Assembly (NCBI GenBank): GCA_013289795.1
Contig: JABCZH010000012.1
Span: 62,001-126,000, forward strand
Direction: 5' to 3'
Source of the DNA: Acidobacteriota bacterium
Lineage (GTDB): Bacteria; Acidobacteriota; Terriglobia; Terriglobales; Acidobacteriaceae
DNA: 64,000 nucleotides
The notes under the pieces are model-generated. The model did not search any database. It was not told the origin of the DNA and saw only the letters and a program-made list of their open reading frames with translations. A program made the translations under genes and the position numbers. Positions 34,089-49,925 of this stretch are shown one piece after another (the first letter of the stretch is position 1; every line of letters starts with the position of its first letter).

Positions 34089-35327
34089 GTGGCTACTCCC
34101 GCATCCTCTCCTGCGCCTAGACCGAATACCCGATTCGTGGCGCGCCAGCCGATCCTGACCAGCGATGAAAAAGTCTTTGGCTATGAACTGCCGTTTCGGG
34201 ACGGCGTGGAAGATTACTTTCGCAACCCGGATCCGGACGCGGCTTCACGCAGTACGTTGAGTACGTCCCTGCTGATGGGGCTGGATGTCTTGTGTGACGG
34301 GCGACGGGCCTTCATCAACGTCACCCGTGACGTGCTGCTCAAAGACTACATCACTCTGCTGCCCTCGTCCCAAACAGTGGTGGAGATTCTGGAAAGCATT
34401 CCGCCGGATGATGTAGTCAGAGCAGCCTGCCAGCGGTTGAAGGAAGGCGGATACCAGATCGCGCTGGATGATTTTGGAATGGACGATCCTCGGGAATCGC
34501 TCACCGATCTGGCGGACATTATTAAGGTTGACTTGAGAACCACGCCGCCGGAGCAGGCGGCGGCGTTGGTGAAACGGCATGGCCCCTGGCGCTGCCGCAT
34601 GCTGGCGGAGAAGGTGGAAACGCGGGAAGAATTCCTGGCGGCGAAGAAAGCCGGGTTTGTTTATTTCCAGGGATACTTCTTTCGCCGGCCGGAAATGCTG
34701 AGCACGCATGAGATCCCGGCCAATCAGCTCAATTACCTGCGCATGTGGCAGGCGGTGGCACGGCCTGAGTTGGACATTCGCGAAGTGGAGCAAGTGATCA
34801 AAGGTGAGGCGTCGCTCTGTTACCGTCTCTTGCGATACTTGAACTCGGCGGCTTTTGGATTCGGCCAGGAAATTCATTCTATCCGGCACGCGCTTTCGCT
34901 GTTGGGCGAGCGGGAAGTGCGGCGGTGGATCCGGCTGGTGGCGACGCTCGGGGCGGGACAGAACAAATCGAGCGACCTGGTGCTCTCGGCTCTGGTGCGA
35001 GGGCGGTTCTGTGAACTACTCTCCCCTACGGTGGGAGCCGGGGAGTCAGACTTGTTCCTGATGGGGCTGTTGTCGGTGATGGATGCGATTCTCGAGATTC
35101 CGATGGCACGCGTGCTGGAGAACGTTCCCGTGGACCAGGAGAGCAAGGCGGTGTTGCTGGGCGGGCCCAGCCGGTTGCGTCCGTTTTATCAACTGATGAT
35201 CGCGCAGGAGTCTGGCCAGTGGGAAACCGCGCATGAGCTGGCTGGCCAGTTGCACCTCAGCGAAAGCGAAGTGGCAGAGAAATACTGGGAAGCGATGCAG
35301 TGGGCGCGGCAGGTGAGCGGAGGGTGA
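34089..35327 (+). CDS. EAL-HDOD (YuxH-type) signalling protein
   Basis: 412 residues from a GTG at 34089. The N-terminal EAL-like domain (ARQPILTSDEKVFGYELPFR, then IALDDFGMDDPRESLTDLAD) has F/YELPFR instead of the EAL catalytic triad, so phosphodiesterase activity is unlikely. The HDOD domain (VIKGEASLCYRLLRYLNSAA, IRHALSLLGEREVRRWIRLV) fills the C-terminal half. These proteins act in signal transduction and motility or stress control without known catalysis. It starts 53 bp after the sigma operon and may be co-transcribed. Confidence 0.92.
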   Translation: MATPASSPAPRPNTRFVARQPILTSDEKVFGYELPFRDGVEDYFRNPDPDAASRSTLSTSLLMGLDVLCDGRRAFINVTRDVLLKDYITLLPSSQTVVEILESIPPDDVVRAACQRLKEGGYQIALDDFGMDDPRESLTDLADIIKVDLRTTPPEQAAALVKRHGPWRCRMLAEKVETREEFLAAKKAGFVYFQGYFFRRPEMLSTHEIPANQLNYLRMWQAVARPELDIREVEQVIKGEASLCYRLLRYLNSAAFGFGQEIHSIRHALSLLGEREVRRWIRLVATLGAGQNKSSDLVLSALVRGRFCELLSPTVGAGESDLFLMGLLSVMDAILEIPMARVLENVPVDQESKAVLLGGPSRLRPFYQLMIAQESGQWETAHELAGQLHLSESEVAEKYWEAMQWARQVSGG

Positions 35328-35348
35328 TGCCCACCCAAGGTCGTCGTG

Positions 35349-35426
35349 CTACATCTCGGCGCTGGCGTATGAATTGATTTCGCAGTTCAAAGTGATCTCT
35401 TCAAATTGTGGTGTGGTCCATTCCAT
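35349..35426 (-). CDS. pqqA: PqqA-like precursor peptide (25 aa)
   Basis: ATG at 35426, TAG at 35351-35349, 25 codons, with a strong AAAGGAGAAAGAT ribosome site 20 bp after the stop of the propeller gene 35446-36891. The peptide reads MEWTTPQFEEITLN, then C15, and E16-I-N-S-Y20, then ASAEM. The E-x3-Y pair is the cross-linked glutamate and tyrosine of PqqA, and the W3/P6/F8/E10 positions fit the family as I recall it. PqqA is converted to pyrroloquinoline quinone by PqqE and partners, none of which is in this window. It could alternatively feed another radical SAM pathway. Confidence 0.75.
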   Translation of the reverse strand: MEWTTPQFEEITLNCEINSYASAEM

Positions 35427-35445
35427 ATCTTTCTCCTTTCTAAAC

Positions 35446-36891
35446 TCAGTGCAGGCGGATGCCGCCGACTACGTCTTGCAGGTACTGGCTGTTGCTGTCG
35501 TCCATCCACGCAGCGATGAAGTCCGGACCGGCCCAGGTGTTTCCGGTGTAGCTTCCCATACTCCCGTTGTTGTCGTTGGGGTTGGAGAATGCGGTGGTGA
35601 GTTGCACATTCGAGCGAAAGCTCTGGCCACCATCGGTGGAGATGGCAGCGAATGCCTGGTAATTGACATTGGCGGGATCGTTGCGGCGGTCGAGCCAGCT
35701 TACTCCGACCAGCCCCATCGGACTAACAGACAGCCAAGGGAAGAACTGGTCGTGATTGGCACTCGCCGGGGCTACCGGCACGGGCTTGGACCAAGTGCTG
35801 CCCCCATCGGTGGAATGGATGACCTGTACCCGCAGATATGTGCCAGTCCAGTTGTACATCACCACGTACAGATTCCCCGCGTAAGGTCCGTCGCTGTTAT
35901 CCACGCTGATCGCAGGATAGTTGTTTACTGAAACCTTGGTATTCGGCAAGGTCCAATCAAGGGGCATCGTCACTATCGTCATTAAGCTCGGGGTGGACCA
36001 CGTATTGCCGCCATCGGCTGACTTCGAGAACACTACATAGGCTTGGCTGTTGTTGCAGCCCGCATCCGACCCGCTACCAGGGCAATACAGCCAGGTGAGG
36101 TACACGGTTCCATTCTTGCCGATGGCTAGGGCGGTAAAGTTGTCTTCGGCGGGCGAGATCTGCACTGGTGCCACGTTCACGGTCTTCCAACTGGTACCGC
36201 CGTCACTGGAGTGAGAGACAACTATCTGGTTCTTGCTTTGGCGGGGCTCGTTCAGGACCACGGCTGAAACATAGAGGTTGTTAGCATACGGACTGTGCGC
36301 ACTCGCATCGACCGCTAACGCGGAATAAAAGAACAGGCTGTGGTTGTTGGGGCCACCGAGAGCAATCCCTGGGTTGCTCCAGTTGAACCCGTCGCTGGAT
36401 TTTTCAAGCGCGACCAAACCATATCGCTGGCCCGCGTTATCGGCATACTCGTCGCCGATGTAGGCGACACCATTCGAATCATAGCCAACCATTGGCTCGA
36501 ATCCGGGTATGTATTGGCGTTGCGGAGTGTTGATCACGGGCATGCAGTGCACACCCCAAGTTGCGCCCCCGTCTTGCGAATAATGAAACACAGAGAAGGT
36601 CGAAGGACCACAATTGAAATCTAGGCTGCCGAGCAACAGGTGCCTAGGATTTAGCGGATCAGCGGCGATAGGCGCATCGATCACCTCAGCGCCCCCTTCA
36701 GAAGCTTGCGTCGGTGGTAATACGCAGGGCGCGGGCGAGCAGGTGATCGGTTCACTATTCGCTGGCGCAGGTGCGCTTGGAACAAAGGACCGGAATTCCT
36801 GGTGCCGGTGGTGACCGGACTGACCCTGAGCAATGCCTCCGAATAGGCAGGCGACTGCAGTCACTATCAAAATTCGGACTACGGTTTTCAT
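35446..36891 (-). CDS. secreted Asp-box (sialidase-like) beta-propeller protein
   Basis: 481 residues, AGGAGAAGAAG before the ATG at 36891. Signal peptide MKTVVRILIVTAVACLFGGI ending near AQG. Five Asp-box motifs occur: SQDGGATW, SSDGGTSW, SADGGNTW, STDGGSTW and STDGGQSF, as in BNR/sialidase propellers. The catalytic Arg triad and Tyr/Glu of true sialidases are not evident, so enzymatic function is open. The gene is in an operon with the PQQ-like propeller gene upstream (9-bp gap) and the PqqA-like peptide downstream (19-bp gap). Confidence 0.88.
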   Translation of the reverse strand: MKTVVRILIVTAVACLFGGIAQGQSGHHRHQEFRSFVPSAPAPANSEPITCSPAPCVLPPTQASEGGAEVIDAPIAADPLNPRHLLLGSLDFNCGPSTFSVFHYSQDGGATWGVHCMPVINTPQRQYIPGFEPMVGYDSNGVAYIGDEYADNAGQRYGLVALEKSSDGFNWSNPGIALGGPNNHSLFFYSALAVDASAHSPYANNLYVSAVVLNEPRQSKNQIVVSHSSDGGTSWKTVNVAPVQISPAEDNFTALAIGKNGTVYLTWLYCPGSGSDAGCNNSQAYVVFSKSADGGNTWSTPSLMTIVTMPLDWTLPNTKVSVNNYPAISVDNSDGPYAGNLYVVMYNWTGTYLRVQVIHSTDGGSTWSKPVPVAPASANHDQFFPWLSVSPMGLVGVSWLDRRNDPANVNYQAFAAISTDGGQSFRSNVQLTTAFSNPNDNNGSMGSYTGNTWAGPDFIAAWMDDSNSQYLQDVVGGIRLH

Positions 36892-36900
36892 CTTCTTCTC

Positions 36901-38730
36901 CTAGTTCGCGCAGTTGGGATAGCCTGGCTGTCCACAAAGCCCGAACACGTCTACCTCGCTTCTAGTCCCCATATACACTCTACTCTTGAACACGACGGGA
37001 GTAGCGAACGTTGCGGGAGTACCGGTAGCCCCGATTATGGGACTGCTGTAAAGATCCTGAAGGTTGGTTGCGTTGTATGCGTGCAAAATGGCCGATCCAA
37101 AGATACCACTACAGTTGTGGTTGAGCGGGTTGCTGGTGTTATTGTCCTCAATCGCCCACGCGATTCCCGTATTCGCGACTCCAGTATACGAGTTTGTAGT
37201 GGCGGAGGAAACCGAAGGCTTGCCGCCGTGCCCGCAGAATGCGGTGTCGGTTGAGTAGCTCGGGATGCTCGGAACTGGTCCAGGACTTACCACCGTGGTT
37301 AGCACGTACATATTCATCGGGAGGGGAGGGTTATTTGCTTGAGGGTCCGCCACTGTAGCGTCTACCGAGTAGTAAATCGCTCGTTTAGTTGTGCTCCCGC
37401 TGATCCATTCCCAGTAGGCCGGAGTGCTCCAGTAGCCCTGTCCCAGTTCCACCTGCCCGTTCGGCAGCAGCGGCGTCTGGAGCTCCTGAACGATGAGGTC
37501 GCCTAATGAGTTAAAACCCGTCAGGTTGTCGCGATTCAGCACGTAAAGCTTCGATTCCTTGTCGGCGGTCACCATAAGACGGGGGAGCCCCGTTATGAAA
37601 GAGTCCGGAAAGAGCAAAACTCCTCCCGAGCCAAGATCCTCGTCTTGGATGCAGCGACCGACATTGCTGGCGAAACTGAAAACGTCAGCGGGCGTGAAGT
37701 AATCGGTCGTGGCGGTCGGGGCCGCTAGGGTCGAGGCATTCAGCTTGAGCAAGCTATCGCCGAAGTTGAAGTCGGTGCCGGGCGCTCCGTAGCTGCCATT
37801 GGCAATAGACACGAAAATGGAGGTCGAATCGGACGCCAGTCCGGCACTATCCATCCATATTCCTCCGCCACTGCCGTGCGGAGTGACATTGAGGGTCGCC
37901 GTCGGGGCCGGCGTAGTAAAGAATCCGCCGGTCACGTTATAGGTGTAACTAACGAGCCAACCATTCTCCACTTCGCTGTCGGCGGGGGCGAACGCAACAT
38001 AGACCACGTCAAGGTTGCCACTGGGCAGTAACAGCAGGCCGGCCCGCTGAAAGTGCTCTGACGCATCGAAAGTGAGTGTTCCGTTGCCCGTCGTGGAGGT
38101 GCATTTGACGGTGGGCGCCTGGCCCGAGGCCGTGGGGTGAATAAGATATGGGCTGCCCGACATCTCGGCTCCCGTCTTGTAGTTAATTGCGTGCAAGAAA
38201 TATTGCACATCGCCAGGATAGAAGTCGAGCAGAACAAACGATACCACGTAGAGAATACCTCCGGTCCTATCGATGACTGGCGTTCCAGTGACCCCAATGT
38301 TGGGGAAGATCACCACGCCTTTAGTGCAAGGCGGGGTCATGCGCATGGAGCAATCGACGTAGGTGCCACCGGCGTTGGCGGCGAGATCTGTGCTCCAAAG
38401 CTGCGTGTTCGAGGCTGCGTTGAACGCGTACAGCTTATCCTCTTCGGTCGCAATGAAAACCACGTCGCATGTACCACAGCCGCTCATGCCGGTCGCAGCG
38501 CTTAGCGCAAGCGGCTGCGCAAAAACCGCGCCTAATACGGTGTACTGGAAAACCTTGCCGAAGCCAGCGAGCACGGTGGACGGTGTGAGCGTCGTTTCGT
38601 TCTGCTGCCAGCCGGTGCGGTTGTTGTCGTAGTGCCAAGTTGTCACGTCTTGCGCCTCGGCGCTAGAAGTCAGCAACACCAGAGATCCAGCTAGGAACAG
38701 CAGAGAGAAGGAACGGACGAAACGGAACAT
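36901..38730 (-). CDS. secreted PQQ-like beta-propeller protein
   Basis: 609 residues from the ATG at 38730 (GTGGAGG before it); an ATG at 38784 with GGGGAG would add 18 residues before the signal peptide. Signal peptide SLLFLAGSLVLLTSSAEAQ. Several PQQ-like repeat strands are visible (VVFIATEEDKLYAFNAASNT, QLWSTDL; RLMVTADKESKLYVLNRDN). The repeats are those of the quinoprotein/BamB fold, but cofactor-binding residues cannot be asserted. It leads the operon that ends with the PqqA-like peptide. Cysteine-rich (CGTCD, CGHGG, CGQPGYPNC), so probably disulphide-stabilised outside the cell. Confidence 0.88.
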   Translation of the reverse strand: MFRFVRSFSLLFLAGSLVLLTSSAEAQDVTTWHYDNNRTGWQQNETTLTPSTVLAGFGKVFQYTVLGAVFAQPLALSAATGMSGCGTCDVVFIATEEDKLYAFNAASNTQLWSTDLAANAGGTYVDCSMRMTPPCTKGVVIFPNIGVTGTPVIDRTGGILYVVSFVLLDFYPGDVQYFLHAINYKTGAEMSGSPYLIHPTASGQAPTVKCTSTTGNGTLTFDASEHFQRAGLLLLPSGNLDVVYVAFAPADSEVENGWLVSYTYNVTGGFFTTPAPTATLNVTPHGSGGGIWMDSAGLASDSTSIFVSIANGSYGAPGTDFNFGDSLLKLNASTLAAPTATTDYFTPADVFSFASNVGRCIQDEDLGSGGVLLFPDSFITGLPRLMVTADKESKLYVLNRDNLTGFNSLGDLIVQELQTPLLPNGQVELGQGYWSTPAYWEWISGSTTKRAIYYSVDATVADPQANNPPLPMNMYVLTTVVSPGPVPSIPSYSTDTAFCGHGGKPSVSSATTNSYTGVANTGIAWAIEDNNTSNPLNHNCSGIFGSAILHAYNATNLQDLYSSPIIGATGTPATFATPVVFKSRVYMGTRSEVDVFGLCGQPGYPNCAN

Positions 38731-38784
38731 TTTGGATGCCTCCACGGCGGAAAGATTTGCGAACGGGGCGATTCGAGCTTTCAT

Positions 38785-39173
38785 GACTTTCTACTCCCCT
38801 GGGGCGGTCCAGAAATAAACGGCTAGCGTGAGAACGTCGTCTATGAGTGGAGAGAATGGAAGATCGACCAGCACTGTGGGACGAAGCGAATGCTTTAACC
38901 GATCTGGCGCAGCCAGTGTGGCCCTCGCCCCTAAAGGTGTCAAGAATAAAATTCAGCTCATGGTGGATCGTTGCGAATGAACGACATAGTGGCGAGAGGC
39001 CTGCCTAATATTCATACAATGCCGTGCTTTTGTCCGAGCGCGAACTCCATGCCCCGGCGCCTGACGAATCTCAACGGGCCGATTCTCGACACTGGCATTC
39101 CTGAATCCCGGATGCGGTGTTCCATTGAAGCGTTTGTGAGAGATGGCCTCTAGAGGCCGAAAGGTGAGAGCCC
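38785..39173. other. intergenic region, no gene seen
   Basis: About 390 bp. A 60-codon plus-strand frame (38971-39153) has no ribosome site or recognisable features. A perfect 14-bp palindrome GGCCTCTAGAGGCC lies at 39145-39158. The region should contain the promoter of the propeller operon. Confidence 0.5.
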
Positions 39174-39743
39174 CTACTTGCCGGAGGCTTCTTGCAGAAA
39201 GCTTAGATTGGCTGCGACTCGGGCGGCGCCTTCCAATTGCTGCAAGTCGTCGAGCGTGAAATCCGGGCCGGACGTGGCCAGATCAAATCCTTTGCGGCAA
39301 ATCTGAATTACGCCTAAGACTTTCTTCTGAGGGTTAAGGATTGGCGCCGACATCAGTTTCTGGATGGAGGTCTGCTCGGAGTGGTCGCTTTCCTCGGTGG
39401 TGCCCAGCCGCACGGTTTCGAACACCCGGGCGTGCTTAACTTTGGCGAAAGTGTTGAATAGTTCTGTTTTCTTGGTGGACGCAGTATGCGCAGCCACCGA
39501 GGACGAACTGGAAACTGGAATCGACCCGGCAGTTTTCAACTGGTCGGGAAAGACGAATTTCAGCAGCCCTTTTTCCAAGCGCAACAGAGCGACTTCGTTG
39601 GGGCGCACGCCGAAGAACTTCGACACCGCAGTGCGGAATTGTTCCGGAGTGTCAGCCTGTCCCAGCGCAGATTCCACAGCAGACTTGCTGGCTCGTGCCG
39701 GCGCGGCTGCCGCTCCCGAAGTCGAATTCACTTTTCCCGCCAT
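39174..39743 (-). CDS. GAF-domain protein
   Basis: 189 residues. After a low-complexity Ala/Ser start, residues 30-185 follow the GAF pattern: KFFGVRPNEVALLRLEKGLL, RVFETVRLGTTEESDHSEQT and IQKLMSAPILNPQKKVLGVI, QICRKGFD. GAF domains bind small molecules or cyclic nucleotides and act as regulatory modules; here there is no attached output domain. Same strand as the rhodanese and PilZ genes upstream. Confidence 0.82.
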   Translation of the reverse strand: MAGKVNSTSGAAAAPARASKSAVESALGQADTPEQFRTAVSKFFGVRPNEVALLRLEKGLLKFVFPDQLKTAGSIPVSSSSSVAAHTASTKKTELFNTFAKVKHARVFETVRLGTTEESDHSEQTSIQKLMSAPILNPQKKVLGVIQICRKGFDLATSGPDFTLDDLQQLEGAARVAANLSFLQEASGK

Positions 39744-41845: not shown

Positions 41846-44677
41846 ATGACAGAGGAACCACGGTTTCGGAAATTGACTCAGGGCCATGCCCTCATTTGGC
41901 TGCTCGCATTCTTGACCGTCTCGGCCGCTTACCTCTACGCGTTTCCTCAGCCTAACATCTTCTATGCCGGGGTCGTTCTGCTGCATGCGTTGGGTGGCGT
42001 TGCCGCGACATTTTTCTTGCTGGTATTTCTTGCTCTCCAGTTGCGAAGTTTAAGTCCTCCTTCCCGCTTGGGCTGGATTCTACTCGGAGGGGGCGCGCTC
42101 GCAGGACTGGTTCTGATCAAGACCGGCACGGCGCGGACCGAATGGCCCCGGATGTATGTGCACATTGCCTTGTCGCTGGCAGGGCTGGGGGTTCTGGTTG
42201 CTAAGTGGGCCGGATCCCGCGGGTGGTTGGCCCGGGGATTCTGGCGAACGCTCTTTCGTTACGCGACCTCCTTGGTTCTAATCGGGCTGCTCGTCGCAGG
42301 TGCTCGCTATCTGCGAGAGTCACGCTGGCGCCATCAAGCGCGCATCGCGAATCCCGCCATGCCTCCCGCCAGCATGGACGGGGAGGGCGACGGCCCCAGC
42401 GGACCATTCTTTCCCAGTTCCGCGCAGGTTTTCGGCGGGCAGAAGATTCCCAGCAAGTTCTTTATGGAATCGGAGTCGTGCAAGCGATGTCACGAGGACA
42501 TCTACAACCAGTGGTTCAGTTCGGCGCATCATTTTTCGTCGTTCAACAATCAGTGGTACCGCAAGAGCATCGAGTATATGCAGGACACGGTGGGCACGCG
42601 GCCCTCGAAATGGTGCGGTGGATGCCACGATCCTGCTGTGCTTTACAGCGGCTTGATGGATACGCCCATCAAGCAGATTGTCCATCGTCCGGAATCTCAG
42701 GCTGGACTTGGCTGCATGATGTGCCACTCCATCGCCGCGGTGAAAAGCACCATGGGGCAAGGTGACTTTTATCTGGAGTATCCCAAGCTGCATGAAATGG
42801 CGGCAGACACGAATCCACTCGCCCGCTTTTTCCACGATTTCCTGGTGAAGCTGAATCCTGAGCCGCACCGGCGGGTATTTCTCAAGCCGTTCATGCGAGA
42901 GCAAACGGCTGAGTTCTGCTCCACTTGTCACAAAGTTCATCTGGATGTTCCGGTGAACCACTACCGCTGGGTTCGCGGCTTCAATGAATACGACAACTGG
43001 CAGGCGAGTGGGGTTTCAGGTCAGGGTGCGCGGTCGTTTTATTATCCCCAACAGCCGTCACAGTGCGCGGATTGCCACATGCCGCTTACGCGATCTTCGG
43101 ATCTCGGGAACACCGGCGGGTTGGTTCACTCGCATCGCTTTCCCGGAGCAAACACGGCTTTGCCGACTGCGAACGAGGACGCCGAGCAACTCAAAGCCAC
43201 CGAAGATTTCCTGAAGAACGATATCCTGAGCGTGGATATATTTGCACTCTCGCGCGAGCCGGGTACTCCACAACCCGGCGTTTCCAGCCAGCCTGAGTTG
43301 TCCACGAATTTTGCTGTGGGGGAAGAAGCCGAGACCAAAGTTGCACCGGCCGGTGAAGGTGACGTCCCTCCTCTAACTGCCCCCTTGAATCGGGTGCAAG
43401 CAGCGGTTCGCCGGGGAGACACCGTGCGCGTGGACGTGGTTGTGCGCATAAAGAAGGTTGGGCACTTCTTCCCCGGCGGCACCGTCGATGCCTACGATAC
43501 CTGGCTTGAACTGAAAGCCACGGATGACAAAGGCCAGACCATATTCTGGAGCGGCATGGTCGAGGACGGCGGCAGGGGCCCGGTCGAGAAGGGTGCGCAT
43601 TTCTATCGTTCGCTGCAACTCGACGCCCACGGCAACCGCATCAATAAACGCAACGCCTGGGCTACACGTACCGTTGTCTATGTTCGTTTGATCCCTCCGG
43701 GAGCCGCCGACACAGTCCACTATCGCCTTCAGATTCCGCAGAACGCTGGGGACAAAGTCACGCTCCACGCACGCCTTTGTTACCGCAAGTTCTCGTGGTG
43801 GAACACTCAGTTCTCTTTTGCCGGAGTTCCGGAGGCGGCGGGCGAAGTCACGGCTGACTACGATGATCGCAAGTTTGCGTTTACGGGTTCGCAGCGGGGG
43901 GTGTCAGCCAAGGAAGAGAAAATCCCGGATTTGCCGATTGTGATTATTGCCGAGGATGAAGTTACTCTGAGTGTCACGCCGCACAACGCACCGACGCCCG
44001 AGGCTAAGACAGTCTTGCGAGCCGCTGACTGGCAACGCTGGAACGACTACGGCATTGGGCTTTTCTTGCAGGGTGATCTCAAAGCGGCCCGGGCGGCGTT
44101 TGAGAAAACAACCGAAGTAGATTCCGCTAATCCCGACGACTGGGTCAACCTCGGCCGAGTGGCGGTGCAGGAAGGCGATATGGATCGTGCCGGGACTGTG
44201 CTGAAGAAAGCCTTATCGATGAGCCCGTATTTGGCCCGTGCCCACTTCTTCTATGCCAAGGTTCTGCGCAGCGAGGGACGTTACGACGAGGCGGCTCAGC
44301 AGTTGCGCGAGGTCCTGGCCCAATATCCTCGTGACCGTGTTGCGTTGAATGATCTAGGCCACATTCTTTTCCTGCAACGCAAATATGGAGAAGCCGTGGC
44401 AGTGCTGCAAAGCGTTCTGGCCATCGATCCCGAAGACTTGCAGGCACACTACAACCTGATGCTCTGCTACAGCGGCCTGGGGGCCGAAGCACGGGCGCAT
44501 GAGCACCAGATTCGCTACCTTCGCTTCAAGGCGGACGAGGCAGCTCAAGCCATTACTGGCCCGTACCGCCAACTCAATCCCGAGGACAACAACGAGCGCC
44601 AGGCAATTCATGAGCATGTGTCGGTGCCGTTGCCGGTCGCAGATGATTTTCATGTGGCCGCGGGGGGGGCAAAGTAA
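41846..44677 (+). CDS. membrane-anchored pentahaem cytochrome c with C-terminal TPRs
   Basis: 943 residues. About five N-terminal transmembrane helices (residues 15-152) precede an exported domain with five CxxCH haem sites at C212, C257, C290, C358 and C407 (CKRCH, CGGCH, CMMCH, CSTCH, CADCH). A beta-rich region follows and the last 200 residues are TPR repeats (DWQRWNDYGIGLFLQGDLKA, NPDDWVNLGRVAVQEGDMDR, DRVALNDLGHILFLQRKYGE). Electron transfer in or across the envelope is expected. The stop overlaps the start of the ASPIC/UnbV gene (TAATG). Confidence 0.93.
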   Translation: MTEEPRFRKLTQGHALIWLLAFLTVSAAYLYAFPQPNIFYAGVVLLHALGGVAATFFLLVFLALQLRSLSPPSRLGWILLGGGALAGLVLIKTGTARTEWPRMYVHIALSLAGLGVLVAKWAGSRGWLARGFWRTLFRYATSLVLIGLLVAGARYLRESRWRHQARIANPAMPPASMDGEGDGPSGPFFPSSAQVFGGQKIPSKFFMESESCKRCHEDIYNQWFSSAHHFSSFNNQWYRKSIEYMQDTVGTRPSKWCGGCHDPAVLYSGLMDTPIKQIVHRPESQAGLGCMMCHSIAAVKSTMGQGDFYLEYPKLHEMAADTNPLARFFHDFLVKLNPEPHRRVFLKPFMREQTAEFCSTCHKVHLDVPVNHYRWVRGFNEYDNWQASGVSGQGARSFYYPQQPSQCADCHMPLTRSSDLGNTGGLVHSHRFPGANTALPTANEDAEQLKATEDFLKNDILSVDIFALSREPGTPQPGVSSQPELSTNFAVGEEAETKVAPAGEGDVPPLTAPLNRVQAAVRRGDTVRVDVVVRIKKVGHFFPGGTVDAYDTWLELKATDDKGQTIFWSGMVEDGGRGPVEKGAHFYRSLQLDAHGNRINKRNAWATRTVVYVRLIPPGAADTVHYRLQIPQNAGDKVTLHARLCYRKFSWWNTQFSFAGVPEAAGEVTADYDDRKFAFTGSQRGVSAKEEKIPDLPIVIIAEDEVTLSVTPHNAPTPEAKTVLRAADWQRWNDYGIGLFLQGDLKAARAAFEKTTEVDSANPDDWVNLGRVAVQEGDMDRAGTVLKKALSMSPYLARAHFFYAKVLRSEGRYDEAAQQLREVLAQYPRDRVALNDLGHILFLQRKYGEAVAVLQSVLAIDPEDLQAHYNLMLCYSGLGAEARAHEHQIRYLRFKADEAAQAITGPYRQLNPEDNNERQAIHEHVSVPLPVADDFHVAAGGAK

Positions 44678-46389
44678 TGCGGTGGTCCGTCGCGTTCATA
44701 TGGGCAGTGGTGCTCGGCAGTTCTGCGCACTCCCAGTCCATCCAATTTCGCGACATTACTGCAAAAGCCGGCATTCGTTTCATCCACAATAATGGCGCAT
44801 TTGGGAAGAAGTATCTTCCCGAAACTATGGGGCCGGGATGCGCGTTCATCGACTACGACAACGACGGCTGGCCTGACATCGTATTAGTAAATGGTGAAGA
44901 TTGGCCCGCACATCCCAAGTCTGGCGCGAAGTCCGGTGCGGCGACGCTCAAGCTCTATCACAACAACCACGATGGCACGTTCACCGATGTCACTCAGAAG
45001 GCTGGGCTGGCGGTTCCGATGTACGGTCTGGGCGTCGCCGTGGGCGACTACGACAACGATGGCTATGACGATCTTTTTATCACTGCTGTCGGTCAGAGCC
45101 GCCTGTTTCACAACAACGGCAACGGCACTTTTACCGACGTTACCAAAGCCGCCGGATTGTGGGGGCCGAAGGGGTTCTCCACGAGCGCTGCCTGGCTGGA
45201 TTACGATCGCGACGGCAAGCTCGACCTCGTGGTCGCAAACTACGTGCAGTGGTCGGAGAAAAGTGATCTCTACTGCACGCTCGATGGGGTTCACAAATCC
45301 TATTGCACACCGGAATCCTATAAGGGAAGCTCGGCTCGGTTGTGGCACAACCTGGGCAATGGAAAATTCGAAGACGCCACCGAGGAGGCAAAGTTCTACG
45401 ATTCGACTTCCAAGAGCCTAGGCGTCGCAATTCTAGATTACAACGGCGACGGCTGGCCGGATATTCTGCTGGCCAACGACACTCAGCCCAACAAGCTCTA
45501 TCTCAACCAGCGCGACGGAACATTCGCAGAAAAGGGAATTGAAGCGGGCGTTGGCTTCAGCGAAGACGGCGTAGCCCGTGCCGGCATGGGCGTCGATGCT
45601 GCGGACTACGATCGCTCCGGCCGCCCGAGCATCATCATCAGCAATTTCGCGAACCAGATGCTGTCGCTTTATCACAACGAAGGCAACGGCTTGTTTGTCG
45701 ACGAAGCGCCACGGTCAGAAGTAGGTCGCGCTACGCTGATCACGCTGGGATTCGGCTGCTTCTTTTTCGATTACGACAATGACGGCTGGCCCGATATTTT
45801 TGTTGCCGACGGCAATATTGAAGAGCAGATCGAACGCGTGCAAAAGCGAGTCAAGTATGCCGAGCCGCCGCATGTGTTTCGCAATCTTGGCGGAGGGAAG
45901 TTTGAGGAAGTAACAGAAGCACTCGGAGCGGCATTTGCCAGTCCCAAAGTCGCACGCGGCGCGGCTTATGCTGACATTGACAACGACGGCTCGCTGGATG
46001 TTTTGCTTACTACCAACGGCGGTCCTGCATACTTGTTTCACAACGAAGACGGCAGCAATCACAGTTTGCGGGTGAAGCTGGTTGGGACCAAGTCGAATCG
46101 CGATGGCATCGGCGGGGCGGTGCGCGTGACTTCTGGGGCGGTTGGCCAGAAGAAAGATGTGCAATGGCAGATGGTGCATAGTGGCTCGAGTTATCTGTCA
46201 CAGAGCGAACTGGTGCTAACGTTCGGACTCGGGGCAGCAGACCAAGCTGACGCAGTCGAAGTGCAATGGCCCAGTGGGCAGATCGACAAGCTGGCAGACG
46301 TGGCCGCAGGTCAGACCATCACGATTCAAGAGGGGAAGGGAATCGTGGCCCGGCGGCCTTACTCGCTGCCTGCTGTCAAAAAGCGATAA
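44677..46389 (+). CDS. CRTAC1-family FG-GAP/ASPIC-UnbV protein
   Basis: 570 residues with signal peptide (WSVAFIWAVVLGSSAHSQ). Seven FG-GAP/VCBS blades with the calcium-binding DYDNDGWPDI pattern are visible, followed by an ASPIC/UnbV domain (NRDGIGGAVRVTSGAVGQKK, SYLSQSELVLTFGLGAADQA, VEVQWPSGQIDKLADV). This is the usual CRTAC1 architecture of secreted Ca-binding propellers. Start overlaps the cytochrome stop, so assembly with the cytochrome is likely. Confidence 0.93.
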   Translation: MRWSVAFIWAVVLGSSAHSQSIQFRDITAKAGIRFIHNNGAFGKKYLPETMGPGCAFIDYDNDGWPDIVLVNGEDWPAHPKSGAKSGAATLKLYHNNHDGTFTDVTQKAGLAVPMYGLGVAVGDYDNDGYDDLFITAVGQSRLFHNNGNGTFTDVTKAAGLWGPKGFSTSAAWLDYDRDGKLDLVVANYVQWSEKSDLYCTLDGVHKSYCTPESYKGSSARLWHNLGNGKFEDATEEAKFYDSTSKSLGVAILDYNGDGWPDILLANDTQPNKLYLNQRDGTFAEKGIEAGVGFSEDGVARAGMGVDAADYDRSGRPSIIISNFANQMLSLYHNEGNGLFVDEAPRSEVGRATLITLGFGCFFFDYDNDGWPDIFVADGNIEEQIERVQKRVKYAEPPHVFRNLGGGKFEEVTEALGAAFASPKVARGAAYADIDNDGSLDVLLTTNGGPAYLFHNEDGSNHSLRVKLVGTKSNRDGIGGAVRVTSGAVGQKKDVQWQMVHSGSSYLSQSELVLTFGLGAADQADAVEVQWPSGQIDKLADVAAGQTITIQEGKGIVARRPYSLPAVKKR

Positions 46390-46462
46390 CCACAGAGGGC
46401 ACAGGGGATCACAGAGGAAGTAGCGCTAGAAACCTCTGTGCTCCTCTGTGGCCTCTGTGGTT
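46390..46462. repeat. CCACAGAGG-type inverted repeat
   Basis: AACCACAGAGGGCACAGGGG at the left end and CCTCTGTGGCCTCTGTGGTT at the right end form an imperfect inverted repeat; intermediate CCTCTGTG copies occur. This type is widespread in acidobacterial and other soil genomes. Confidence 0.7.
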
Positions 46463-46475
46463 AACTGGTTCTCGC

Positions 46476-49400
46476 ATGACGCCACGAATTGCAATCTCTC
46501 TTGCCGGAATCCTGGCAGCGTGCACGCTAGTGTCTGTTGCCTCTCCGCAGAAGCGTGCGGACGCCACACCAGCCCAGGCAGCGCACCTGAACAACCTCGG
46601 CGCTGCCTACATGAATCAGCAACTTTTCGAAAAGGCACTCGCAGCCTTCGCGGATGCTGCCGCGCTCGATCCGAAGCTCCAGATTGCGAGGCTCAATCAA
46701 GGGATTGCGTTGCTGAATCTGGGCAAGGTCGATGCCGCTCGGCCGCTGCTGGAGGAGGCGGTGAGGCAGAATCCCAACGATCCCCACGCCTGGTACAACC
46801 TCGGGTTGCTGTTCAAGAATAGCGGCGATGTGGATGCTGCCACGATTGCATTCCATCACGTCCTCGATATCATCGGGGACGACGCCGACGTGTGGTACTT
46901 CCTCGGCTCAGTCTATGTGCAGGGCAAGCAGTATGAACGGGCAATCAACGCTTTTCAAATTGCACTGAAGCTGAATCCGCAGCATGCTTCGGCGGAGTTT
47001 GGGCTGTCACGCGCGTATCAGCAGTCGGGTGATTTGACCCATGCCCGCGAGCATCTGGTGCGCTTCCAGTACATCAAAGAGAACAAGTTGGGCGTGCCGA
47101 TCAGCCTGGCTTACGGCGAGCAGGGAAAGTATTCACTGGCGGAAGAGTCTGCGTTAGCACCAGAGAAAGTGCCAAAGCAGATCAAGGTGCGGTTTGTGGA
47201 TGTGACGGAGAAGGCGGAGTTGGCCACAAAGGCGGCTGCCTCACAACGGAATGAGGTGGGCTCCAACCTTGGCCCAGGTGCGTGTTTTCTGGATTACGAC
47301 AATGATGGCCGCCCGGACATCTTTCTTCCGGACAACGGCAAAGAAGGCGGAATGTCGCTGTATCACAATCTGGGTAATGGCAGATTTGAGGATGTGACGC
47401 GGAAGGCTGGACTTGACCCCGCGCTCCATGGAATCGGCTGTACGGCTGGTGATTACGACAACGACGGTTTTACTGATTTAGCAGTGAGTTTCACTGGCCA
47501 TCTGCTCCTTCTGCATAACGAAAAGAACGGAACATTCAAAGATGCAACGGAAGCTGCGGGAATAAGGAGCGAGGGCTTCAACAACAGCCTCTCATTCATT
47601 GACTATGACCACGACGGCGATTTGGATCTGTATGTCAGCCGAACCAGTGGCGTCATTCCGATGACCGCTGGATATTCATCTATAGGACCCACTCGCGGAT
47701 GGAACGTGCTGTGGCGCAATAATGGAAATGGAACTTTTACCGATGTCACCGCGGCGGCCGGGCTGTCGGGCGATGTGGGAGGCACTGCCGCGGTGGGCAC
47801 TGACTATAACAATGACCGCGCAGTCGATCTTGTAGTCGCACAATTTGTACAGCCGCCGTTGGCGTTTGAAAACCCACGAGAAGGGAAGTTCCTGACGCAT
47901 CATTTCTGGCCGGTTGCCGAACCAGAACTCACGCTCGGTCTCGCCGTGCTCGACTTCGACCATGACGGCTGGATGGACCTTGTGTTCTCCGGCTCTCCTC
48001 AGCCTGGGGTGACTCTTTGGAGAAACGACGCTGGCCATGATTTTGAACGGGCTAGCCTGCCTCGGACCGATTTGTCTCATACCTGGGGCATCGCCGCGAT
48101 CGACTACGACAACGACGGCTGGGTGGATATCGTCGCTGTCGGCGAGACGGCTGAGGGCAAGGGCGAGGTGAAGCTTTTCCGCAATCTGGGCCCTGACGGA
48201 TTCAAAGATATCACCGCCGAGGTCGGGCTCGACAAAATCGGTTTGAAGGATCCTCGTGCCATTGTCACTGCTGACTACGACGGTGACGGTGCCACTGACC
48301 TGCTCATCACCCAGAATCACGGCCCGGCTGTGCTGCTGCGCAATGAAGGCGCCAATCAGAATCACTGGCTGCGCTTGAATCTCACTGGCCTAGCCGACAA
48401 CAAGAGCGCGATCGGGACCAAGGTCGAAGTATTCGCCGGAGGCAACCGACAGAAGTTCGAGATCGCAGGGTCATCCGGTTATCTTGGCCAGAATTCTTTG
48501 CAACTCACGGTCGGACTTGGCCAGGCGAAGCAGGCTGATGTTGTCCGCATGCTCTGGCCTACGGGAGTTTTGCAGGACGAAGTCGAAGTCGCGGCCGACC
48601 GCGAACATAAGTTTATGGAGATCGACCGCCGTGGCGGATCCTGTCCCACGCTGTTCGTTTGGGATGGCACGCACTACGCGCTGGTCGCGGACATGATCGG
48701 CGCGGGCGCGCTGGGACACTGGTATCGACCGGGGCAACGCAACATTGCGCGGCCCACGGAATACATCAAGATCGATCGCAACTCGATCCGCGAAAAAGGT
48801 GGCAAGCTGAGCTTCCGTTTCATGGAGCCGCTGGAAGAGTCGGTGTATCTCGATCAGGCGCAGCTTCTCGCAGTGGATCATCCCGCCGAGTTCGATGTCT
48901 ATCCCAACGAATATTTCGCCACCGACCCGCCTTATCCGCCCTTCAAAATTGTCTTCAGCCGGGACGCGCGCCCTCCTGCCGGCGCCTGGGATGAGCATGG
49001 GCACGATCTCTTGCCGGATCTGCTGGCGCACCGCTATATCGGCGATTTGGAGCTGCTCCCGTTTGAGGGCTTCACCAAACTGCATAGCCTGGAACTCGAC
49101 TTGGGCCAGCCCTACGACGGAGGCCCGCTGTGGTTGTTGATGCATGGTGAGGTTGAATACTACAGCGCTACGGCCATGTACGCGGCCAATCAAGCAGGGA
49201 TTCCTGTGGTCGCGCCGTACGTGAAAGCGCTCGGTGCCGATGGTAAATGGACGCGTGTCGCCGACGATTTCGGTTTTCCTGCCGGTGGCCCACGGACCAT
49301 AACGGCCGATCTGACCGACAAATTGCCTCGCGGTACCGAACGCATCCGAATTTGGACCAACGCGCAGGTTTACTGGGACGACATTCTGATTGACCGCGCT

Positions 49401-49925
49401 GATCAGAGCCAAGATTCCCGTACGACTTGGGTTCCGCTCGTCCACGCTGATCTCCGCTTCCATGGATTTCCGCTGAAGATCGAGGGCAAACCTCCGGGCA
49501 ATGTGCAGTACATCTATGAACAGGCGAGTGCGACCGGGCCTTACACGCATCCCGCCGGCAATTACACACGCTACGGCGACGTGTTGCCGCTGGTGCGTGA
49601 TTTCGACGACCGGCTGGTTGTGTTTGGATCGGGAGAAGAAGTTGCTCTGGATTTCGATCTCGCCAGCCTGCCGCCGCTGCCGAGCGGATGGGCACGGGAT
49701 TATTTCTTCCTGGCCAACGGATACGAAAAAGACATGGACTTTTATTCTTATGACTGGACCCACGTCGATCCATTGCCGTTCCGCGATATGGGCACGTATC
49801 CGTATCCGGGGAAGTCGTTCCCGTTGGATGACGAACACTTGAAGTATCTTCTCGAATACAACACGCGGTACATGTCGGGGCATGAGCCGCGGGGGTATGG
49901 GTTTGATTACGGGACAAATCCGTAG
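46476..49925 (+). CDS. TPR + FG-GAP + ASPIC/UnbV protein with large unknown C-terminal region
   Basis: 1149 residues from the ATG at 46476 (MTPRIAISLAGILAACTLVS, a signal peptide); the open frame extends 70 codons upstream over the preceding repeat. Residues 30-210 are TPRs (AHLNNLGAAYMNQQLFEKAL, PHAWYNLGLLFKNSGDVDAA). Residues 250-620 are FG-GAP blades (FLDYDNDGRPDIFLPD, AIDYDNDGWVDIVAVG), then ASPIC/UnbV to about residue 710. The remaining 430 residues (SCPTLFVWDGTHYALVADMI to the end, with WTRVADDFGFPAGGPR) match nothing I know. It lies 86 bp after its paralogue and probably belongs to the same complex. Confidence 0.92.
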   Translation: MTPRIAISLAGILAACTLVSVASPQKRADATPAQAAHLNNLGAAYMNQQLFEKALAAFADAAALDPKLQIARLNQGIALLNLGKVDAARPLLEEAVRQNPNDPHAWYNLGLLFKNSGDVDAATIAFHHVLDIIGDDADVWYFLGSVYVQGKQYERAINAFQIALKLNPQHASAEFGLSRAYQQSGDLTHAREHLVRFQYIKENKLGVPISLAYGEQGKYSLAEESALAPEKVPKQIKVRFVDVTEKAELATKAAASQRNEVGSNLGPGACFLDYDNDGRPDIFLPDNGKEGGMSLYHNLGNGRFEDVTRKAGLDPALHGIGCTAGDYDNDGFTDLAVSFTGHLLLLHNEKNGTFKDATEAAGIRSEGFNNSLSFIDYDHDGDLDLYVSRTSGVIPMTAGYSSIGPTRGWNVLWRNNGNGTFTDVTAAAGLSGDVGGTAAVGTDYNNDRAVDLVVAQFVQPPLAFENPREGKFLTHHFWPVAEPELTLGLAVLDFDHDGWMDLVFSGSPQPGVTLWRNDAGHDFERASLPRTDLSHTWGIAAIDYDNDGWVDIVAVGETAEGKGEVKLFRNLGPDGFKDITAEVGLDKIGLKDPRAIVTADYDGDGATDLLITQNHGPAVLLRNEGANQNHWLRLNLTGLADNKSAIGTKVEVFAGGNRQKFEIAGSSGYLGQNSLQLTVGLGQAKQADVVRMLWPTGVLQDEVEVAADREHKFMEIDRRGGSCPTLFVWDGTHYALVADMIGAGALGHWYRPGQRNIARPTEYIKIDRNSIREKGGKLSFRFMEPLEESVYLDQAQLLAVDHPAEFDVYPNEYFATDPPYPPFKIVFSRDARPPAGAWDEHGHDLLPDLLAHRYIGDLELLPFEGFTKLHSLELDLGQPYDGGPLWLLMHGEVEYYSATAMYAANQAGIPVVAPYVKALGADGKWTRVADDFGFPAGGPRTITADLTDKLPRGTERIRIWTNAQVYWDDILIDRADQSQDSRTTWVPLVHADLRFHGFPLKIEGKPPGNVQYIYEQASATGPYTHPAGNYTRYGDVLPLVRDFDDRLVVFGSGEEVALDFDLASLPPLPSGWARDYFFLANGYEKDMDFYSYDWTHVDPLPFRDMGTYPYPGKSFPLDDEHLKYLLEYNTRYMSGHEPRGYGFDYGTNP

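Follow-up and report, generated by a model that had tools for sequence, protein, structure and literature searches.

A pqqA paralogue behind propeller genes in an Acidobacteriota genome and a possible coupling of PQQ precursor supply to quinoprotein-like proteins

A 64,000-nucleotide stretch of an Acidobacteriota genome (hereafter the window, on contig C12) carries a 25-codon gene for PqqA, the precursor peptide of pyrroloquinoline quinone (PQQ), away from the other pqq genes and directly behind two genes for beta-propeller proteins. Here we describe this locus, its counterparts elsewhere in the genome and in relatives, and the case for a functional connection between the peptide and the propellers. 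The features are as follows.

35349..35426, minus strand: pqqA paralogue of 25 codons, MEWTTPQFEEITLNCEINSYASAEM, over cut-off with both PF08042 and TIGR02107.
35433..35438, minus strand: Shine-Dalgarno sequence AAGGAG, 6 nt 5' of the pqqA ATG, read from the sequence.
35446..36891, minus strand: Asp-box (BNR) propeller protein of 481 amino acids (aa), over cut-off with PF13088 BNR_2.
36901..38730, minus strand: PQQ-like propeller protein, 609 aa from the ATG at 38730 (627 aa from 38784), below cut-off with PF13360 and assigned with a structure model.
34089-35327, plus strand: convergent downstream neighbour, an open reading frame (ORF).

On the minus strand, the PQQ-like propeller gene is followed after 9 bp by the Asp-box propeller gene, and this after 19 bp by pqqA as the last gene. 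The original prediction had described the same layout, and its frame at 35426-35349(-), ribosome site, two gaps and third-gene position are all correct by sequence. For the PQQ-like gene, the start at 38730, which is also the one implied by the coordinates of the original prediction, is likelier than that at 38784, and Met19 aligns with the start of the paralogue on contig C17. The Asp-box protein scores 34.5 bits with PF13088 BNR_2 (cut-off 31.4), and three paralogues, 55-69% identical to the window copy, precede other pqqA copies. Both window propeller proteins have a hydrophobic, signal-like N-terminus, judged by eye, and on that basis they are apparently secreted; scripted gene calls were simple longest-ORF picks. 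From the sequence, the propeller genes and pqqA are probably co-transcribed. A scan of 35150-39200 revealed no sigma-70-like promoter, and the minus strand showed no terminator-like site in the gap that separates pqqA from the Asp-box gene; neither negative carries much weight in this organism.

The window peptide is, by sequence family, a genuine PqqA. It scores 24.4 bits with PF08042 (cut-off 21.1) and 25.9 bits with TIGR02107 (cut-off 20), and the latter model matches all 20 PqqA peptides that we chose from this genome and its relatives. The Glu-x3-Tyr pair that had first suggested a PqqA-like core (E16 and Y20) is invariant in these 20 peptides and in the seven full-length copies of the genome. 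The genome's own copies vary at positions 2, 7, 12, 13, 22 and 24, and residues 14-21 (NCEINSYA), including the reactive pair, are the same in the copy linked to pqqB. A Cys directly before the reactive Glu (C15) is also invariant in the 20 chosen peptides, all from the window's family. A chance ORF is ruled out by the curated models together with the substitution pattern given below; a regulatory leader ORF is ruled out as well, since pqqA is the last gene and its downstream neighbour lies on the other strand.

The genome (4.67 Mb in 33 contigs, completeness 99.91) holds seven full-length PqqA genes, the other six being 88-92% identical to the window copy, and it also encodes a complete PQQ pathway. 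A pqqA copy on contig C2, whose peptide is 92% identical to that of the window, precedes pqqB, while pqqC, pqqD and pqqE lie together on C3; all four score over the curated cut-offs (pqqB 361.7, pqqC 334.6, pqqD 60 and pqqE 524.8 bits). The pathway is thereby split, with pqqAB and pqqCDE on different contigs (L024, L029); in relatives, pqqB, pqqC and pqqE share one stretch at 36 of 43 pathway-linked loci. The pqqE and pqqC models have no match on the window's contig, and those for pqqB and pqqD matched on C2 and C3, the window not being searched for them separately. The label 'orphan' given to the gene by the original prediction thus holds for the window and fails for the genome as a whole, where the proposed search for pqqBCDE and a second pqqA recovered all four genes and six further full-length pqqA copies.

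That prediction had left open whether the gene is a dispersed pqqA or encodes a PqqA-like precursor of some other ribosomally synthesized and post-translationally modified peptide (RiPP). Its close identity to the copy that precedes pqqB, the presence of pqqB to pqqE elsewhere in the genome and the single PqqE over cut-off bear out the first option. Under the second, some modified peptide distinct from PQQ would be made from the paralogues and would act together with the propellers or be exported alongside them, as their physical pairing with apparently secreted proteins and the six variable positions might suggest; but the core is the same as in the pqqB-linked copy, and there is no radical S-adenosylmethionine protein matching the PqqE model within 20 kb of any pqqA copy. 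A different product is not needed, we consider it very improbable, and a novel RiPP system was set aside.

All six non-canonical full-length copies start closely behind a same-strand propeller gene (19, 19, 19, 19, 25 and 21 bp on contigs C12, C17, C15, C11, C8 and C4, respectively), and GGAG is present 5' of each. The copies on C12, C17, C15 and C11 come directly behind an Asp-box gene, upstream of which lies a PQQ-like propeller gene (C12, C17), a truncated one (C15) or another Asp-box gene (C11). Those on C8 and C4 come directly behind a PQQ-like propeller gene, which is frameshift-split on C4; in both cases the gene before this propeller encodes a protein of 341 or 338 aa, with a match to the YVTN propeller repeat on C8. 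The genome has 16 PQQ-like profile matches, 11 of them long; pqqA or a remnant of it is found behind four long propellers (C12, C17, C8, C4) and two fragments (C15, C6). The remnant cassette (C6, L028:4498-4806) looks like the result of a deletion, with the N-terminus of a PQQ-like propeller running in frame into the final 11 codons of a pqqA, and apart from it no degenerate pqqA was found near the genome's other propellers in the stretches examined. On contig C5 (53794-60296; L152, L164, L166, L167, L178), a PQQ-like propeller in two pieces is followed by three Asp-box genes and a fragment of a fourth in tandem, without pqqA.

The copies are maintained. Pooled over the 21 pairs of own pqqA copies, nonsynonymous difference (pN) is 0.057 and synonymous difference (pS) 0.46, a pN/pS of about 0.12, with synonymous sites differing by up to 80% between copies. 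Among the propellers that precede the copies, pairwise pN of the Asp-box proteins is 0.18-0.32, and BLAST identity is 28-56% for the PQQ-like and 51-67% for the Asp-box proteins, compared with 88-92% for the peptide. As pN is far below pS in the peptide while the neighbouring propellers diverge, the peptide sequence is kept by selection: the dispersed pqqA copies are under purifying selection. This bears directly on the possibility that whole propeller cassettes were duplicated and carried along a functionless peptide gene. The cassettes are indeed paralogous and show decay, with the 11-codon remnant on C6, the split propeller before the C4 copy, and a copy in a relative (L086, genome G109, behind a 1344-aa ORF with a PQQ-like propeller) that carries a stop codon in frame and keeps neither the Glu nor the Tyr. 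Passive carriage does not sit well with so low a pN/pS at such synonymous divergence, nor with ribosome sites that are kept; it is disfavoured by pN/pS, and we regard it as improbable.

Relatives show how far the pairing extends. PqqA matches at E 1e-4 occur in 117 of the 398 genomes of the window's family, and this genome has the most copies (seven; the next highest number is four); the comparison set contained no other genome of the organism's genus. In a sample of the phylum, matches were found in 15 of 396 genomes, all in the window's own family, from which the search model had been built, and the pairing is therefore testable only within that family. Neighbourhoods were taken from all 42 other genomes of the first match set and from 15 of 74 further matching genomes; 10 of the last 20 stretches were picked because their genomes held two copies, so that the sample leans to multi-copy genomes. 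We classified 79 pqqA loci, 44 with pqqB, pqqC or pqqE in the stretch (pathway-linked) and 35 without (unlinked). A propeller of either type lies within 5 kb at 6 of the 44 pathway-linked loci versus 16 of the 35 unlinked ones, and directly upstream on the same strand, at 400 bp or less, at 0/44 versus 10/35, six of these ten being in this genome. Thirteen of the 35 (L061, L062, L067, L068, L072-L074, L215, L219, L221-L224) are lone pqqA genes without pqqB, pqqC or pqqE in the stretch, at one seemingly conserved place near a zinc-ribbon gene and an MraY-like gene, with names and grouping assigned by eye.

Outside this genome and that conserved other site, which was set apart post hoc and by eye, 16 unlinked copies remain. 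Ten of them have a PQQ-like propeller no more than 5 kb away, where 0.30 would be expected from the number of PQQ-like propellers per genome (P about 2e-14). Counted by genome, the same test gives 8 of 13 (P about 2e-11), and with all 29 unlinked copies of other genomes there are 10 near a PQQ-like propeller against 0.8 expected (P about 2e-9). With the conserved other site left out, unlinked copies also exceed pathway-linked ones (10/16 vs 6/44, Fisher P 4e-4). The count of ten includes L080, whose propeller reaches E 1e-11 in one search only, and omits L060, which has only an Asp-box gene; the 79-locus classification does the reverse. Among the remaining six of the 16, L060 is behind an Asp-box gene and L082 behind a more distant PQQ-like gene (found by tblastn only), and no propeller was found near L075, L104, L207 and L209. 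The order is not always that of the window: the propeller is downstream of pqqA in L066, L080, L211, L214 and L216, and upstream on the other strand in L081. At L060, from another genus, an Asp-box gene is followed by pqqA after 24 bp. In all, the pairing is seen in six other genera of the family, and in one of these the only partner gene is of the Asp-box type.

A tree of 45 propellers, 12 of them linked to pqqA, requires eight changes between linked and unlinked, at least seven of which are forced by well-supported branches; the pairing has therefore repeatedly arisen or been lost. Linked rows show some clustering on the tree, a count as low being reached in 18 of 500 shuffles. Propellers at a distance of as much as 5 kb from pqqA were also scored as linked, as were those lying downstream of it (L066, L211, L214, L216) or on the opposite strand (L081). 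The tree omits the broken C4 and C15 propellers, and it scores L089, L090 and L096, which are near a pqqBCE-linked pqqA, as unlinked. Altogether, the pqqA-propeller pairing is real and recurrent. The association with a quinoprotein-fold protein noticed in the original prediction is thus wider than one window could show, and the conserved 25-codon frame with E16 and Y20 that it looked for is kept at six propeller operons of this genome, with the Asp-box-pqqA order also present in the genus of L060.

What, then, is the PQQ-like propeller? It belongs to a family undescribed by curated models: no NCBIfam family matched the window protein, and of 25 aligned propellers, the window's included, four match PQQ_2 and one matches PQQ (E 0.001). 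A sequence search of solved structures with a profile built from four propellers gave no match at E 1. An AlphaFold2 model built with 25 sequences (mean pLDDT 75.1, pTM 0.83) indicates that the protein is of quinoprotein-type fold. The best Foldseek matches by E-value are quinohemoprotein alcohol dehydrogenases, with 1kb0 on top (E 2.1e-12) and TM-scores of 0.43-0.49 for the first three (1kb0, 8gy2, 1kv9). In VIA-align, quinoproteins reach Z 24.4-24.8 over 406-424 residues, tied with BamB (Z 24-26 over 321-342). This fold is common to BamB and YxaL and therefore proves no function.

The propeller was also compared with the genome's one PQQ alcohol dehydrogenase over cut-off (C9, 568.8 bits). 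The profile match is weak (probability 44-51, with E 1.5e-4 at 51), but in a forced alignment the two stay collinear over their full length. In the weak profile alignment, W310 falls opposite the Trp of GDSWKVGG, N329 opposite the Asn of TGNPAP, and K409 opposite the Arg of NRNGYFYVLDR. In methanol dehydrogenase numbering these positions would be the pocket residues Trp243, Asn261 and Arg331; Asp303 is a further residue of that pocket. W310 and K409 are invariant in all 25 propellers, as are D381, D383, H51, D53, R56, E63 and R247, and position 329 is N in 20, D in 2 and E in 3; at Asp381 and Asp383 the alignment to the alcohol dehydrogenase is gapped. A PQQ site in the window propeller is thus possible, to judge from alignment and model. 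Elsewhere in the window (41846-49925) lie three consecutive large genes; as read from their translations, the first has several CxxCH motifs and tetratricopeptide-like repeats and the next two are FG-GAP/VCBS-like repeat proteins.

In PQQ synthesis, PqqE and PqqD cross-link the Glu and Tyr of PqqA, and PqqB and PqqC finish the cofactor. If the propeller operon is transcribed as a unit, extra PqqA would be made from its last gene; PqqE with PqqD would cross-link Glu16 and Tyr20 of this peptide, and PqqB and PqqC, encoded elsewhere, would complete PQQ. As PqqA is consumed one molecule per cofactor, supply would be coupled to propeller production, and the PQQ-like propeller is proposed to bind PQQ outside the cytoplasm. 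The pairing would be accounted for if the operon of a presumed PQQ user brought along extra precursor in this way, and such coupling may be the benefit for which it was selected. It is plausible that the PqqA product serves the co-encoded propellers, and we lean, with some reserve, towards the view that the dispersed pqqA genes serve to provide precursor for PQQ at the times when the quinoprotein-like propellers are being produced.

A number of observations weigh against this coupling. Most propellers of this family that were examined have no pqqA nearby. In the genome itself, the gene immediately before pqqA is of the Asp-box and not the PQQ-like type for four of the six copies, seven further long PQQ-like propellers have no pqqA, and there is none on the contig of the C9 PQQ alcohol dehydrogenase. 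In relatives, pqqA was found at one (L121) of 24 named loci with propeller relatives, up to 5 kb on each side; several of the paired cases share a genus and are not independent (L066 and L216; L211 and L214; L081 and L088); and the excess relative to pathway-linked copies becomes weak once the full set of 29 unlinked copies is used (10/29 vs 6/43, Fisher P 0.048). As for the protein, the window propeller scores 22.5 bits with PF13360 (PQQ_2; cut-off 27.6) and is not among the genome's three TIGR03075 matches. Its Foldseek TM-scores to the listed quinoproteins are just 0.42-0.57, and in VIA-align YxaL comes first (Z 27.0 over 344 residues), about 2 Z above the quinoproteins. By eye, no clear equivalents were seen for the adjacent Cys-Cys pair, the pocket Arg and the metal-ligand Glu of PQQ alcohol dehydrogenases.

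The explanation that needs least is plain gene dosage: the extra pqqA genes would raise precursor for ordinary quinoproteins, their place behind propellers would reflect convenient promoters or cassette duplication, and the propellers would not use PQQ. The genome has an ordinary candidate user in its PQQ alcohol dehydrogenase, and the window propeller misses the curated quinoprotein models. Multi-copy pqqA with a single set of other pqq genes is also on record: according to the available parts of the respective papers, Methylophilaceae carry 3 to 12 pqqA copies, with the other pqq genes single-copy as a rule (PMC4109929), and a methanol-grown PQQ producer has five (PMC9851590). Convenience alone, however, does not lead one to expect a pairing that reappears in six other genera and on far-apart branches of the propeller tree, and we consider dosage alone a rather unlikely account.

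Returning to demand-coupled supply, it is tempting to extend it and to see the propellers that start with HxDNxRTG as an undescribed class of secreted quinoproteins whose operons repeatedly gain their own PqqA, each operon thus carrying the precursor of its cofactor with it, which would also explain genomes with many pqqA genes; we offer this broader proposal tentatively. The pairing suggests a link between the supply of the cofactor and proteins that may require it. If the propellers do bind PQQ, a family hardly recognised by curated models would gain a cofactor and a likely redox role, and pqqA neighbours would offer a route to quinoproteins that sequence models miss. To our knowledge, it is not settled why some methylotrophs keep several pqqA genes with one PQQ enzyme set. 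The extra copies described here stand in a clear context that recurs, and the question of multiple pqqA genes thereby becomes testable.

The window gene and its products can be set beside three known systems. It shares with the pqqA of pqqABCDE operons its sequence family, Glu-x3-Tyr core, length and the presence of PqqB-E in the genome, but it is not beside pqqB, pqqC, pqqD or pqqE, and stands last behind propeller genes, being one of six such copies in the genome. The PQQ-like propeller resembles PQQ-dependent alcohol dehydrogenases (1kb0, 1kv9, 6zcv) in fold type, in a weak collinear profile match and in conserved Trp and Lys/Arg pocket positions, and differs from them in having no curated-model match and no Cys-Cys, and no clear counterpart of the pocket Arg and metal Glu. 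The closest parallel is in methylotrophs, where, in the portions available of PMC4109929 and PMC11317620, there are likewise several pqqA genes with one set of other pqq genes, some of them unlinked. According to the available text of PMC11317620, it was PqqA availability that proved rate-determining in a Methylovorus carrying five copies of pqqA, and expression of the orphan pqqA2 and pqqA3 of M. extorquens differs with the neodymium source. The same portions of these papers make no mention of secreted-propeller pairing, and our literature searches, which reached sources in part, found no description of pqqA behind secreted propellers; here, in contrast, six of six unlinked copies have that pairing, which is found again in other genera. 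Methylotrophs thus offer precedents for multi-copy and orphan pqqA, and the propeller context described here appears to be new.

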